Source of the DNA: Haloferula rosea
Lineage (GTDB): Bacteria > Verrucomicrobiota > Verrucomicrobiia > Verrucomicrobiales > Akkermansiaceae
Direction: 5' to 3'
Length of the DNA: 64,000 bases
Assembly (NCBI RefSeq): GCF_016595525.1
Contig: NZ_JAENII010000001.1
Location: 496,001 to 560,000 of the forward strand
Below the pieces are notes generated by a model. That model searched no databases. It was not told the DNA's origin and saw only the letters and a program-made list of their open reading frames with translations. A program made the position numbers and the translations under genes. This document shows positions 5,994-13,184 of the stretch, piece after piece; positions within the stretch are counted from its first letter, which is position 1, and every line of letters starts with the position of its first letter.

Positions 5994-8198
5994 TCAATCG
6001 AGGGTCACGACGCCGGTGGGCGCGCCATGGGGGTCGAGCCGACGCGTGAGGGCGTGGCGGATGGTGTCGGCGGTCCGCTCCACTTGGAAGCTTCGGGGTT
6101 CGCGGTCGTTGACGGTGACCTCGATTTCTTTGTCCAGATCGAGCAAGGAGTCGTGGAGCAGCAAACGGGTGCCGGCGGGCACGTCGCCCTTGAGGGAGAT
6201 TTTCTGCCCATCCATGGTCGCGACCATTCGCTGACCCTTGCTGGCGGTGCCGTCGGGAAGCTCGATCCAGTAGAAGCGGTCGTGGGTGACGTCATCCTGC
6301 AGCCATACGATCTTCTTCGGCCAGGTCCGGCGGGTGAACTTTGCCATCCATGGAACGGACTCGGCGTCCTTGAGTCCCATCCAGTGGGGCATGCCCTTGT
6401 AGATCCGGGACATGTGGATGTAGCCATCCTTGTCGGCGGCGTGCAGCTTCTCGATCTCCGCGGTTTTCGTTGCGGCGAGCTCGTTGCGCTTGTAGGCGCT
6501 GTCGGCACCTCCCATGAAGATGCCGAAGGGAAGGTTGCGCAGGCCATCCAACTTCGACTCGTTCGGGTGTCCAGCCATCATCGAGGCGGCGGCGAAGCGA
6601 TCGGCCATTCGGGGAGCGAGCTGCCACACGCCGTCGCCACCGGCGCTGTAGCCCATGAGGTAGACCTTGTCCGGATTCACTCCACGGAGTGCCACCATGT
6701 TTTCGATGAGTCGGGAGAAGAGGGGGTCGATGTGATCCCGGTGCCAGAGGTTCCAGGTGTCGGTGGGGGCACGGGGGGCGACGTAGATCCCCTCCTTCGG
6801 TTGATAGAGGCGGATCTGATTCTTCCACTGCTGGTCGTTGACCCGCGCGGGTGCGCCGCCGCCGCCATGCATCGAGATCCACAGGCTGCGTCCATCCGAG
6901 GGAGCATCACCGAAGGTCTTCTCGAGCCAGCGCAAGCTGTGGTCGTCGAGGGTGATGGTTTTGGCATCGAGCTCCTTGCGGCGTTCCGGCATTTGCTTGG
7001 CGACCAGCTCCTGATAGATGGAACGGGTGGCGGCTGCGGCCTGCTCTGAGCTTAGAGGTCCGCTGGGGATGGCTTCGATTTCGGGTTCGGCGGGTTTGAG
7101 GTCCTTGACCTGGAAGTCCATGGTGGTCTCGCCGGCTGGAACATCGAAGAGCTGGGATTGAAGCAGGCTGCCATCAATTTCGAAACGGAGCCGATAGGAT
7201 TGGCTGGTCTTGACGGGCAATCTCGGCATGTCGTTGAGGTCCGTGGTCCCGGCCTTGGTCGTGAATTCCTTAAGGATGCTGCCGTCCTGAAGGGTAAGCC
7301 ATCCTTTGGCCGCAATCCGGGATTGGCGGCTCTCATTGGCGAAGAGGCGGACGCCGATCTGATCACCGCCGGTGGGGTTCTGCGCGTATCGCTCGGTGAC
7401 ATTGACGCCTCCGACGCTCTGCGACCTGGGTGCCCAGACCATGGGGAAATGGGTCCCACGGTGTTCCCAGGAAGTGGCGTAGATGGCGTGGAGCGGCTTG
7501 TCAGCATCGGCCTTGGCGGCATCGCCGGTGAACCAGCCGCGGTTGAGTCCCTTGGCATCGTATTCGTCGGCTCCGGTGAAGTGCCATTCGCCCTTGTCGT
7601 AGATCTCGACCCAGGTGTGGTTGCCGCGGCCATTGGTCCACAGCGGAGTGCCTACAGCACGTGCGGGGATGCCCACGGCGCGGCACGCATCAACCAGAAT
7701 GATGGAAAGCCCCGTGCAGGTTGCTTTTCCCTGCTCGATGGATTCCTTGGGGCTCTGGTTCGTGCGTTTGCGCCCGGTGTGGTAGTGGGTCTTGATGAGC
7801 TTGAAGAACTCCTTGTTGAGACGCTGGGCCGCTTCGCTGGCGCTGGTGGCTCCTTGGACAATGGGCGTGGCCTTTTCCAGGAAATCCGCCCGCCACGGGT
7901 CACGAGGTTCATCGAAAACGGCGTAGGGTAGGACGTCGTTCAAAAACACGGCCTCGGGTAGTTCCTTGGCCCACGGGAAACTCGCTTTGGCTTCGAATGC
8001 GAGGTCGAGATTCTCGTTGAGAAAGTCGGCGGTGAGATTTTTCCGATCCTCCTCCTGCATGTGGGCGATGAGGAATTTTGCCGCTCTGGCACCTGAATCA
8101 CCGTGCTTGGCTTCAGAGTGCTCAATGAACTCCAGCAGGGGGGCTGGAAGGGCCTTGGCCAAACCCAAACAGAGGAGAATGAAAGCGAAGAATTTCAT
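5994..8198 (-). CDS. secreted transglutaminase-like/alpha-beta hydrolase fusion
   Basis: A 734-residue exported protein that joins two enzyme folds. A signal peptide (about 1-17) is followed by a transglutaminase-core domain with Cys161 (GKATCTGLS), His194 (GNHTWVEIY) and Asp211. A beta-rich linker region (about 280-370) follows. The C-terminal half is an alpha/beta hydrolase resembling PHB-depolymerase or feruloyl-esterase types: an oxyanion region (SLWISMHGGGG), the nucleophile elbow GYSAGGDG with Ser518, and a plausible catalytic His605 (GMPHWMG). All key residues appear intact. It is downstream of the M14 peptidase by 50 bases on the same strand, so it may be the last gene of a gltA-M14 unit. 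Substrate is not deducible; a role in hydrolysing peptides or esters outside the cytoplasm is an inference. Confidence 0.85.
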   Translation of the reverse strand: MKFFAFILLCLGLAKALPAPLLEFIEHSEAKHGDSGARAAKFLIAHMQEEDRKNLTADFLNENLDLAFEAKASFPWAKELPEAVFLNDVLPYAVFDEPRDPWRADFLEKATPIVQGATSASEAAQRLNKEFFKLIKTHYHTGRKRTNQSPKESIEQGKATCTGLSIILVDACRAVGIPARAVGTPLWTNGRGNHTWVEIYDKGEWHFTGADEYDAKGLNRGWFTGDAAKADADKPLHAIYATSWEHRGTHFPMVWAPRSQSVGGVNVTERYAQNPTGGDQIGVRLFANESRQSRIAAKGWLTLQDGSILKEFTTKAGTTDLNDMPRLPVKTSQSYRLRFEIDGSLLQSQLFDVPAGETTMDFQVKDLKPAEPEIEAIPSGPLSSEQAAAATRSIYQELVAKQMPERRKELDAKTITLDDHSLRWLEKTFGDAPSDGRSLWISMHGGGGAPARVNDQQWKNQIRLYQPKEGIYVAPRAPTDTWNLWHRDHIDPLFSRLIENMVALRGVNPDKVYLMGYSAGGDGVWQLAPRMADRFAAASMMAGHPNESKLDGLRNLPFGIFMGGADSAYKRNELAATKTAEIEKLHAADKDGYIHMSRIYKGMPHWMGLKDAESVPWMAKFTRRTWPKKIVWLQDDVTHDRFYWIELPDGTASKGQRMVATMDGQKISLKGDVPAGTRLLLHDSLLDLDKEIEVTVNDREPRSFQVERTADTIRHALTRRLDPHGAPTGVVTLD

Positions 8199-8999: not shown

Positions 9000-10130
9000 T
9001 CAGCGGCTTTCGATCGGAGGAACCGGCATCAGTTCAGCGGGACCGGTGTAAAGGGTCAGCGGGCGATAGAGGCGGTTGTTCCGGAGTTGCTCGAGCACTT
9101 GGGCGGTCCAGCCGGAGGTGCGGGCGATGGCGAAGATCGCAGTGAAGAGATCGGTCGGAATGCCAAGCGAGTAGTAAACCGTGGCCGAGTAGAAATCGAC
9201 GTTGGCGTTCAGGCCCTTGCGTTCGCGCATGATTTCGGCGATCCGCTCGGACATCTGGATCCACTTCGGTTCGCCAAGCTCATCGGTGAGTTCGATCGCC
9301 AACTTGCGGAGGTGGGGCGCACGAGGGTCGAGCACCTTGTAGACGCGGTGACCGATGCCCATGATCTTCTCCTTGCGGGAAAGCTTGCCTTCCACGTAAT
9401 CGTCCACCTTGTCGAGCTCTCCGATCTCCTCGAGCATGTGGATCACGCCTTCGTTGGCACCACCATGAAGAGGGCCCTTGAGGGTGCCGATCGCCGCAGT
9501 GACCGCGGAGTACATGTCCGACAGGGTCGCGATCGTGACGCGGGCGGAGAAGGTCGAGGCATTCATGCCATGATCGGCGTGAAGGGTGAGCGCGACGTCG
9601 AGGATCTTGGTGGCTTGTTCCGAGGGCTCTTCCCCGTTGATCAGGTAGAGGAAGTGGGCGGCTTCGCCGAGGTCTTCGCGGATCGGTGGGAGCTCGAGAC
9701 CGTTTCGGAAACGCTGGAAGGCGGCGACGATGACGGGGATCTTCGCCACGATGGAGACCGCGATGGCGGCGTCTTTCTGGAGGTCCGGGTCGCCGATGGC
9801 GACGCGTTCGTCGTAGAGACCGAGCATCGAAACCGCGGTGCGGACGACGTCCATCGGGTTGGCGCCCTTGGGTGCGGTCTTGAGGAAATTGATCACGCCT
9901 TCAGGGAGATTCCGCTGTGAGCGAAGGCGCTTCTTTCCGGCGGTGAGCTCGGTCTGGTTCGGCAGGTGACCGGTGTGGAGCAGGAAAATGATTTCCTCAT
10001 ACGAGCAGTTCTCAACGAGGTCGTCGATGTGGTAGCCCAAATAGCTCAGGCGGCCCTCCTTGCCTTCGACGTTGGAAAGAGCGGATTCGTTGGCGATGAC
10101 ACCTTCAAGGCCTTTTGCGTATGCGGTCAT
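9000..10130 (-). CDS. gltA: citrate synthase
   Basis: Condenses oxaloacetate and acetyl-CoA to citrate at the entry of the TCA cycle. The ATG at 10130 gives 376 residues; the open frame runs on to 10304 but the extra N-terminal residues are not family-like and overlap the tsaB promoter region. Catalytic residues are visible as His222 (PLHGGANEG), His261 (GIGHRVYK) and Asp312 (NVDFYSATVYY). The length fits the shorter dimeric citrate/2-methylcitrate synthase type. It is divergent from tsaB with 127 bases between the starts, and the M14 peptidase follows closely downstream. Confidence 0.95.
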   Translation of the reverse strand: MTAYAKGLEGVIANESALSNVEGKEGRLSYLGYHIDDLVENCSYEEIIFLLHTGHLPNQTELTAGKKRLRSQRNLPEGVINFLKTAPKGANPMDVVRTAVSMLGLYDERVAIGDPDLQKDAAIAVSIVAKIPVIVAAFQRFRNGLELPPIREDLGEAAHFLYLINGEEPSEQATKILDVALTLHADHGMNASTFSARVTIATLSDMYSAVTAAIGTLKGPLHGGANEGVIHMLEEIGELDKVDDYVEGKLSRKEKIMGIGHRVYKVLDPRAPHLRKLAIELTDELGEPKWIQMSERIAEIMRERKGLNANVDFYSATVYYSLGIPTDLFTAIFAIARTSGWTAQVLEQLRNNRLYRPLTLYTGPAELMPVPPIESR

Positions 10131-10257
10131 GACTGAGATTGAGAAGTCTGCCAATTGTCCACGGCAGACGGTGGGAAGAAAGCGAGTCGGCGTAGTCGGT
10201 GCAAGGGAGAATCTGGAAACCTTGCCGGGTGGGCCCCGGCGGGATACAGCTCGCGGC

Positions 10258-10914
10258 GTGCCGACCCTGTTATCCATTGAATCTAGCACGTCGCATGCCT
10301 CCATCGCCCTGATGACGGAGGATGGGGTGATTTATGAAGGCGGATGCGTGAGCGATCGGCATCACAATGCGCTGATTTTCGCTCCTTTGGAGGAAGCCAT
10401 CGAGGCGCTGGGTGACCGCAGGATCGACGAGGTGGTCATTGGCACCGGCCCGGGAAGCTACAGCGGGACGCGCGTCGGTATCGCGACGGGACAAGGGGTG
10501 GCGCTGGTGCATGAATGCCCGGCAATCGGGGTTTCGTCGCTGCTTGCGGCGGGACTGGAGCGGGGAGTTGCCATCGGCGACGCCCGGCGGGGGAGTGGGT
10601 GGACGGCGGTTCTGGCGAGTGGGCAGCTGCCTGACCCTCAAATACTTCCGATTTCCGAGCTGGAATCGGCACTGGAGGACAAGGCGCCTGTTTTCACCTT
10701 CGAGGACCCGGAACGCTTTGTCTTTTCCAAGGAAGTGGCTGTCGACAAGCTCGTGCCCACCGCAAAGCGGCTGGCTCAGGCCTGGCGGTCGCTTTCCGAG
10801 GCCCAGCGCGAAGCGCTTCGAGCGGTCCCTCCGCAGCCGGCCTACCTGAAGCCTCCGCATATCACCGAGGCGAAAAAGGGGCATCCTCTGCTGCGGGGGC
10901 GGAGCAAGGGATAG
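10258..10914 (+). CDS. tsaB: tRNA threonylcarbamoyladenosine biosynthesis protein TsaB
   Basis: Partner of TsaD and TsaE in making the universal t6A37 modification of tRNAs that read ANN codons. The GTG at 10258 begins the protein at PTLLSIESSTSHASIAL, where the ASKHA-fold N-terminus of TsaB should begin, and gives 218 residues, close to the family length. The longer open frame from 10060 runs through the gltA start and is rejected. The diagnostic GTGPGSYSGTRVG loop is at about residues 60-72. The C-terminal end (YLKPPHITEAKKG) resembles the YLRPP tail found in TsaB. It faces the GH-GT2 gene with a 39-base gap. Confidence 0.9.
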   Translation: MPTLLSIESSTSHASIALMTEDGVIYEGGCVSDRHHNALIFAPLEEAIEALGDRRIDEVVIGTGPGSYSGTRVGIATGQGVALVHECPAIGVSSLLAAGLERGVAIGDARRGSGWTAVLASGQLPDPQILPISELESALEDKAPVFTFEDPERFVFSKEVAVDKLVPTAKRLAQAWRSLSEAQREALRAVPPQPAYLKPPHITEAKKGHPLLRGRSKG

Positions 10915-10953: not shown

Positions 10954-13014
10954 TCAGTCGATGATTTCCGCCTCCTGAAGGAGCGGAAGCCGACGGGCAT
11001 CTCCCCAGACCCGGAAAAGGAGTCGTGCCTGGCCGAGGTCGTGGCGTTCGCAGGCCACGAGGACCCGGGTACCGTCGCGTTCGAGGTCCCACGGGTCGGT
11101 CGAGCCACCCGGCAGCCATCCGGCTTCCAGAAGGTCCTGAAGGGCTTTTTCGCGTCCGGTGGATGACCACATGGCCCACTCCGAGTCGGGCGGAGCAGGC
11201 GGGGTAGGGTGGGTATTGACGGGGCCGGAGAATCGTCCGATGCGGGCCCGCGAGCGGAGGCGGGGAGCCATCCAGGTGATCAGTCTGAGCAGTGCGCGAT
11301 TCCACGGCTGGGCGTGGGCCGAGGCGAGGTCGCGCAGCGGTTGCATGTGCACATTCATCTCCTGATACCCGGCCAGGCCCATCGGGCCGTGGTAGATGGT
11401 GGCCGCCCCGGCGATGCGGACCGGGGCGCCGGTGTAGATCATGCCGTGCCAGCGGGCGTCGCCGGAGGGGGAGAAGCGCGACGGGTGCTTGCGCATCAGC
11501 ATGGCCTCGGCGAGACCGTAGCCGACCTGCTGCTTCAGGTAGGCTCGAAGCGACGGCCGACGGTGGTGCCAGACGAAGGCGGTGGGGGCGAAGCCGATGC
11601 GCTTGCCGGCATCCCGAAGCCGCCAGCAGAAGTCGACGTCGTCCCCTGCGGTGCGGAAATCGGGATCGAAGCCGCCAATTTCGAAGAATGCCGTGCGGGT
11701 GACGGCGAGATTGCAGCCAGGCACGTGCTCGGCTTCCTCATCATCCAGCATCACGTGGCTCGCCGCACCCGGGGCTGCGGCGACGATGGCCTCCGTGGAG
11801 GTCGTGGGCGGAGGAGGCAGATTCGGGCCTCCGGCAGCATCCCATCCGTGGGAAAAGCAAATGCCCAGATCGTGCAGCCAGTCGGGGTCGACTTCGCAGT
11901 CGTCGTCAGTGAAGACGAGGATCTCGCCCGTGGCAGCTTCGGCTCCGGCATTGCGGGCGGCGCTGAGTCCGCTTGGAGGGAGTTGAATGAGCTTGGCCTC
12001 GGGGAAATTTTTTCGGACTCCGTCCGCGGTGCCGTCCGTGGAACCGTCGTCGACCACGATCACCTCTGCCTTGACGTTGCGCAGTTGAGCGATGGAGGCC
12101 AGGCAGTGGCTGATCCGGGGCCAGCCGTTGCGGGTGCAGACGATGACCGAGAAGCGGGGTGTGGAAACTTCCGGGCGGGGATTCCCGAAAGCGGATGCCA
12201 CCGCTGCCAAGGCTGGCTTGGGCTGTCCTTGGCGATCGATCAGCCCGAAGTCCCAGTCGAGGACTTCGGCGCCATTATTCCACCAGCGGTCGCTCCAGGC
12301 ATAGACGGTGAGCCCGGCTGCTCCGAGTTCGCGGCAGGCCGCCACGGCCCACGTCAGGGCGGCGGCTTGTTGCTCGGGGCCACGGCGGCGCGAATCGAGC
12401 CCGAATTCCGACACCAGCACCGGTCGATCCCCGGCGATGTGGTGGAGTCGCTTCAGGTAGGACCGGAAGGCCGGTTCATCCTCGAGGTAGACATTCATCG
12501 CGGTCAGGTCCGCGTTGCCGGGTTCGAGGTATTCGGTGGAGGGATAGTTCGCGTAGGCCCAGATGAGCTCAGGACGGCGGCCGCGGCCGAGATCGATCAG
12601 TTCCTCGAGTGCGGCGAGCACCCGGGTCGGGCCCATCCAGCGAACGAGGTCGGTGGGCACCTCATTGGCGACGAATACTCCCGCGAGCGCCGGGTGGTCT
12701 CCCGTGGTGCGCAGCCCGGCATCGAGCGCTTCCCTCGCCTCATCCAGACCGTCCGCGCGCAGAAAGTCGGTGGACTGATGCCACACCAAGCCCGCGAACA
12801 CCCACAGTCCCGCTTCAGCGGCGGCGTCGAGGAGCTCACGAGGGGGCCACCCGTAGAGTCGCAGGGCGTGGAACCCTGCGTCCCGGATGCGGCGGAAGTC
12901 CTCCGAGAAGTCCCCGGGCCATCCGCCGGGGAACGGGCCGTAGGTGACCATCCTCAGGAACACGCGCTGGTTGCCCGCGCGGAGGAATTTGCCATCGACA
13001 CTCAGCCGCTCCAT
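10954..13014 (-). CDS. clan GH-A glycoside hydrolase fused to family 2 glycosyltransferase
   Basis: A 686-residue protein with two carbohydrate-active domains in one chain. Residues 1-275 look like a TIM-barrel glycoside hydrolase of clan GH-A (GH2/GH5-like): Asn117-Glu118 (FVANEVP) fits the acid/base and Glu203 (VLVSEFGLD) the nucleophile. Residues 287 to about 590 form a GT2 domain with VIVVDDGSTDGT (UDP-binding strand), the metal-binding FTDDDCEVD at 368-376, and a GDDVDFCWRLRDAG segment matching the ED/QxxRW region. A further C-terminal 95 residues are unassigned. There is no signal peptide and no clear TM helix, so both domains seem cytoplasmic. A pairing of breaking and making glycosidic bonds suggests remodelling or transglycosylation of an intracellular glycan, but this is inference. 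A 616-codon shadow frame lies opposite. Confidence 0.85.
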   Translation of the reverse strand: MERLSVDGKFLRAGNQRVFLRMVTYGPFPGGWPGDFSEDFRRIRDAGFHALRLYGWPPRELLDAAAEAGLWVFAGLVWHQSTDFLRADGLDEAREALDAGLRTTGDHPALAGVFVANEVPTDLVRWMGPTRVLAALEELIDLGRGRRPELIWAYANYPSTEYLEPGNADLTAMNVYLEDEPAFRSYLKRLHHIAGDRPVLVSEFGLDSRRRGPEQQAAALTWAVAACRELGAAGLTVYAWSDRWWNNGAEVLDWDFGLIDRQGQPKPALAAVASAFGNPRPEVSTPRFSVIVCTRNGWPRISHCLASIAQLRNVKAEVIVVDDGSTDGTADGVRKNFPEAKLIQLPPSGLSAARNAGAEAATGEILVFTDDDCEVDPDWLHDLGICFSHGWDAAGGPNLPPPPTTSTEAIVAAAPGAASHVMLDDEEAEHVPGCNLAVTRTAFFEIGGFDPDFRTAGDDVDFCWRLRDAGKRIGFAPTAFVWHHRRPSLRAYLKQQVGYGLAEAMLMRKHPSRFSPSGDARWHGMIYTGAPVRIAGAATIYHGPMGLAGYQEMNVHMQPLRDLASAHAQPWNRALLRLITWMAPRLRSRARIGRFSGPVNTHPTPPAPPDSEWAMWSSTGREKALQDLLEAGWLPGGSTDPWDLERDGTRVLVACERHDLGQARLLFRVWGDARRLPLLQEAEIID

Positions 13015-13184
13015 CGGCGGGAGGCTATCGACCGAGTGATGGGTCGGCCAGTCCTTTGAGAGGCAGTCATTTCACACGCCGGTGATTGGAATCGGGAGGC
13101 GATTCTGTTGGGATGGGTCATGCAAACGACGAAAGCGGAAAGCAACAGGTCGGCCGGGTCGACTCAGGAGAAGGAGGCATCCCG

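Follow-up and report, generated by a model that had tools for sequence, protein, structure and literature searches.

The minus strand of the window (the whole 64,000-nucleotide stretch that was analysed) carries at positions 10954-13014 an open reading frame, with ATG as its start codon, for a protein of 686 aa and about 75 kDa. In this chain, a predicted clan GH-A glycoside hydrolase half is followed by a GT2 glycosyltransferase half and a C-terminal tail:

10954..13014, minus strand: fused GH-A/GT2 coding sequence, 686 aa (open reading frame, Pfam, AlphaFold2 model; relatives 41-65% identical)
12172..13014, minus strand: GH-A (GH157/GH2-like) TIM-barrel domain, residues 1-281 (phmmer, profile, AlphaFold2 model, fold matches)
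12661..12666, minus strand: N117-E118, predicted acid/base motif (identical in 121/121 sequences)
12406..12408, minus strand: E203, predicted nucleophile (identical in 121/121; aligned with the Glu mutated to Ala in PDB 9g4n)
11356..12171, minus strand: GT2 glycosyltransferase domain, residues 282-553 (Pfam PF00535; MftF-like)
11899..11907, minus strand: D370-D371-D372, predicted metal/nucleotide-sugar motif (D370 and D372 in 121/121, D371 in 116/121)
11638..11643, minus strand: D458-D459 in GDDVDFCWR, predicted catalytic-base motif (each in 120/121, the remaining one being X)
10957..11355, minus strand: C-terminal tail, residues 554-686, a helix and a small alpha/beta domain (AlphaFold2 model, hydropathy, fold search)

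AlphaFold2 modelled the whole fusion confidently as a single unit (pLDDT 92.8, pTM 0.92). For the fold of the tail, the matches were too weak to interpret, led by a MoaD-related protein (Z 8.6) and followed by KA1-like domains (Z ~7). A chance reading frame was rejected, since the full fusion is kept in most of 57 related genomes. We also rejected as a gene the opposite-strand frame at 11209-13059, which looks like a shadow, as the third-position GC bias fits the minus-strand gene; a phage or plasmid origin was discarded because searches with the fusion gave no match. The gene stands alone at its locus, tsaB being convergent with it at a distance of 39 bp and an oxidoreductase gene divergent from it, and its nearest neighbours (tsaB, citrate synthase and a quinone oxidoreductase-like gene) are unrelated to glycans. 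Elsewhere in the window, at 5994-8198, a 734-aa protein reads as a transglutaminase-like domain with an alpha/beta-hydrolase after it and had no NCBIfam match.

Both active sites had been described as intact from the letters alone, and the motifs N117-E118, E203, VVDDGS, FTDDD and GDDVDFCWR were indeed all present as listed. Furthermore, an alignment of the window protein with 120 relatives (121 sequences) confirmed that neither site is replaced, the GH residues being identical in 121/121 and the GT aspartates in 116-121 of 121. The model, the fold matches and the alignments together gave a (beta/alpha)8 barrel in which strand 4 is followed by Asn-Glu and strand 7 by Glu, by which we assign the GH half as a predicted retaining clan GH-A barrel. 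Loss of catalytic activity is known for some GH folds, and the barrel could be a carbohydrate-binding or structural module beside a GT2 domain that alone is catalytic; this is very unlikely, however, since N117, E118, N174, E203 and W244 are invariant in all 121 sequences and Y176 is always Y or F, as catalysis, and not mere binding, would require.

No Pfam model scored above its cut-off for the window GH half. In phmmer, it matched the GH157 enzyme LaGH157 (structure 9fz9) at E=2.4e-7, and a profile of 38 GH halves reached the same protein at E=2.8e-24, followed by GH2 glucuronidases/galacturonidases, GH158 (2e-9) and GH72. The barrel of the model superimposed on LaGH157 with Z 30.5 (285 residues aligned, 2.3 A), and E203 aligned with the Glu mutated in PDB 9g4n, the E224A mutant. 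Both sequence and fold similarity to a GH157 member are thus significant, and the nearest solved relative of the GH half is GH157, a beta-1,3-glucanase, followed by GH2. The identity of only ~19% nevertheless suggests that the GH half is a separate family or a deep branch relative to GH157, and the beta-1,3-glucan specificity of GH157 is therefore not transferable to it. Among the 38 GH halves, Pfam Glyco_hydro_2_C was matched in 17 and Glyco_hydro_72, a glucanosyltransferase family, in 16. Since the relatives thus include GH72 glucanosyltransferases besides the GH157/GH2 hydrolases, the GH-A domain, first described as "breaking", may equally be a transglycosylase or a hydrolase.

The GT half was assigned through Pfam, NCBIfam and Foldseek, as the structure-match (VIA) list for the full model was filled by the GH barrel. 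PF00535 matched residues 289-383 (E=1.6e-25, 90.4 bits against a curated cut-off of 23.3), and the acidic GT2 motifs are conserved (D323, D370-D372, D458-D459 and H483, with D323 and the D motifs in 116-121/121). MftF and EpsD are the models nearest to this half. The top NCBIfam model was MftF (TIGR03965), for which the window GT half scored 172.3 bits, below the cut-off of 280 and thus outside the equivalog, and the same model matched all 29 GT halves scanned. MftF glycosylates mycofactocin with up to nine beta-1,4-glucose residues (PMC7491314).

The tail divides the relatives into two forms, whose membrane segments were judged by Kyte-Doolittle alone. In the short form (88 loci and the window), the tail is mostly ~140-180 residues and never contains a hydrophobic segment; in the long form (32 loci), the same region extends to ~236-290 residues and bears one to four of them. 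R587, R591, R621 and D643 in the tail domain are common to both forms. The window protein itself is not expected to have a transmembrane segment, because its best 19-residue hydropathy value is only 1.19, and the soluble architecture proposed for it is thus upheld. As a family norm, this does not hold: the long form was found in several phyla, and most relatives outside the window's family are of this longer type with C-terminal membrane helices, so that solubility is probably a derived trait of one clade. When the core common to both forms was placed in a tree, the short form fell on one side of a single branch (SH-aLRT 92), with the long row L031 at its base. The short soluble form is thus one clade, which probably arose by a single loss of the membrane part; as the root of the tree is not fixed, this loss is an inference. 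Two genomes from the window's family, G002 and G024, contain both forms.

The fusion is real, conserved and widespread. Both halves were present in all 120 relatives examined. Some match was found in 53 of the 57 related genomes, usually as one copy per genome and mostly as the full fusion over residues 1 to ~550+ at 41-65% identity, and in none of the 57 did the GH subfamily occur apart from the GT. The strong GH matches (E<1e-80) all lay within fusions, the next ones dropped to 1e-15 and resembled ordinary GH-A enzymes, and a weaker GH piece in G005 was a fusion cut by the contig end. In a phylum-wide draw, the fusion occurred in 9 of 145 genomes, a sample heavy in one genus of the window's family (g3) from whose genomes it is entirely absent. 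The gene is thus common within the window's order and scattered elsewhere. Scanning the genomes of 84,980 species for conserved motifs returned at least 572 candidate relatives, which need not all be fusions, the scan motifs sitting in the GT half; the labels Verrucomicrobiota, Myxococcota, Binatota and Thermodesulfobacteriota occur among the 80 candidates kept. A plasmid search with a long-form query gave matches in the GT half only, several of them annotated MftF. Four environmental MAGs titled Akkermansia muciniphila (L046, L050, L053, L064) carry the gene, but the tree groups them with differently named family members, and their titles may be mislabelled. We found no description of this fusion architecture in the open-access literature searched.

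The two forms differ in their neighbourhoods. Of the 36 long-form loci with room to tell, 11, from several phyla, have a half-size ABC exporter downstream in the same orientation, in ten cases 5-120 bp away, whereas none was found next to the short form (0/61 loci); the long forms of G002 and G024 also have the exporter. The closest NCBIfam matches of this exporter, among them MsbA and glucan exporters (NF010178, chvA), all scored below cut-off. GalE-type epimerases accompany two exporter-bearing loci, and other loci have a 400-aa protein with almost no annotation or one that is YdjC-like. Long-form neighbours of ~400 aa share a GHDVYYLEDTG-like motif (L112:8811-9989, L116:8305-9528 and 9577-10788, L125:11825-12997, L119:6776-8002); this family is almost without Pfam matches, with one weak Glyco_trans_1_2, and is probably a glycosyltransferase. 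Where both forms coexist, a protein of ~720 aa precedes the long-form/exporter pair (L039:7810-9978, L040:7660-9861), the one in L039 matching CBM9-like and DUF5916 models, and is possibly an outer-membrane partner of the pair.

Another possibility is that the GT2 domain, like MftF, glycosylates a small molecule or lipid headgroup from which the GH removes or edits the sugar, with no polysaccharide product. MftF, which puts a short beta-1,4-glucose chain on a cofactor, is the best NCBIfam model for the window GT half and matches all 29 GT sequences scanned, and the short form is soluble, as would suit such a role. However, the MftF cut-off was not reached, genes for cofactor biosynthesis were not among the neighbours seen, and a glycan or glycolipid would better suit the exporters found beside the long form; we thus consider this reading unlikely.

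The commonest and most conserved neighbour of the short form is queA (48/88 short loci), which often lies less than 100 bp downstream on the same strand, and was found within 2.5 kb in 12 of 18 genomes of the genus, 7 of 12 of the family and 2 of 17 of the order. The linkage, in same or divergent orientation, spans many genera (e.g. L011, L014, L041, L062), and queA also adjoins the long form in L127, from the window's class but outside its order. The enzyme might accordingly glycosylate the tRNA base queuosine, but this is most improbable: queA is on a different contig in the window's own genome, the long form of other phyla adjoins ABC exporters instead, a GH-A domain would have no obvious role there, and housekeeping-region synteny can account for the linkage, which may be either functional or conserved synteny.

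We propose instead that the fusion is a cytosolic glycan synthase/remodeller, in which the GT2 would build a beta-linked chain and its own GH-A domain would trim or relink it, a proposal in which confidence and doubt weigh about equally. No membrane helix separates the halves, so the GH and the GT should act on the same membrane side; together with the MftF-like GT and the beta-glycan-type GH, this leads us to favour a synthase that builds and then relinks (or trims) its chain. The first suggestion, of two domains remodelling a single glycan, is plausible because the fusion is conserved and obligate and an exporter adjoins the long form. In its favour are also the two catalytic residue sets, intact across the 120 relatives, and the kinship of the GH half with beta-glucan enzymes (GH157, GH158, GH72). 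Against it stand the missing exporter beside the short form (0/61), the small-molecule, non-polymer substrate of MftF and its unreached cut-off (172/280 bits), the non-transferable GH157 specificity (~19% identity) and window neighbours unrelated to glycans.

In the proposed mechanism, the inverting, metal- and nucleotide-sugar-dependent GT2 would lengthen a beta-linked oligosaccharide from a donor that is most likely a UDP-hexose, such as UDP-glucose. The retaining GH-A domain would then work on this chain by E203/E118 double displacement, either cyclising/branching or trimming it. In the long relatives, whose hydrophobic tail and exporter linkage are observed, the C-terminal helices would anchor the machine and the neighbouring ABC exporter would remove the product; in the window's clade, with its soluble short form, the anchor would have been lost and the product would be used in the cytosol or passed on. 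From the domain and locus data, we infer a shared substrate, a glucan, transglycosylation and export. The GH domain could also be a plain hydrolase that trims or releases the GT-made chains without transglycosylation, a variant of the synthase/remodeller and not exclusive of it. Hydrolases are indeed its closest relatives of solved structure (GH157 and the GH2 glucuronidases), but fusing a synthase to a purely hydrolytic enzyme inside the cell would waste part of its work, and the relatives also include GH72-type transglycosylases; we consider this variant rather unlikely.

A bolder version of the synthase/remodeller, which we advance tentatively and think rather improbable in full, is an undescribed glycan-synthase family that combines an unclassified GH-A transglycosylase with a GT2, both facing the cytosol. 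It would be near-universal in the order, accompanied by a dedicated ABC exporter in other phyla, and fully soluble in one clade, whose product would be a cytosolic oligosaccharide, possibly a cyclic or branched one. If true, this would be a compact build-and-relink glycan synthase with both active sites in one soluble chain of 686 residues, the short form being far easier to express and solve than the membrane cyclic glucan synthases. It would also point to a GH-A family that is unclassified and invariably comes with a GT, and would assign a function for the first time to a conserved gene, usually present in one copy, that most of the order studied has in common.

GH17 belongs to clan GH-A, and the product of CGS is exported by a ChvA/NdvA-type ABC transporter, to which the exporter beside the long form is similar. 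The GH17-GT2 "orphan" cyclic beta-glucan synthases of pseudomonads, such as P. aeruginosa NdvB (PA1163; PMC10237404), likewise have an N-terminal GH barrel and a GT2, with a proposed build-then-relink mechanism as suggested here for the fusion. In NdvB, however, the GH17 is periplasmic and transmembrane helices separate it from the cytosolic GT2 (PMC10237404), whereas the window protein has neither arrangement: its GH157/GH2-like half adjoins the GT without a helix between, and the chain is soluble. In CGS (PMC11842490), too, a single chain combines GT2 elongation with a transglycosylase, but the enzyme is ~300 kDa and its transglycosylase and GH94 domains are of other kinds, in contrast to the ~75 kDa window protein of 686 aa, which has a GH-A barrel, no GH94 match in Pfam and no transmembrane segment. 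LaGH157 of Labilibaculum antarcticum (PDB 9fz9/9g4n/9g5g), whose structures include complexes with laminari-oligosaccharides and for whose entry 9fz9 no paper was found in the open-access literature, is the closest solved structure to the GH half and has the same catalytic residues in the alignment; it matches this half alone at ~19% identity, its 537-residue chain being far too short to include the GT domain of the fusion in addition. MftF (470 aa; TIGR03965; PMC7491314) is the closest curated family to the GT half, over ~250 residues, but is without a GH domain of this type, and the window protein scores 172 of the required 280 bits. The fusion is thus a variant of the known GT-GH fusion synthases, built from different families.
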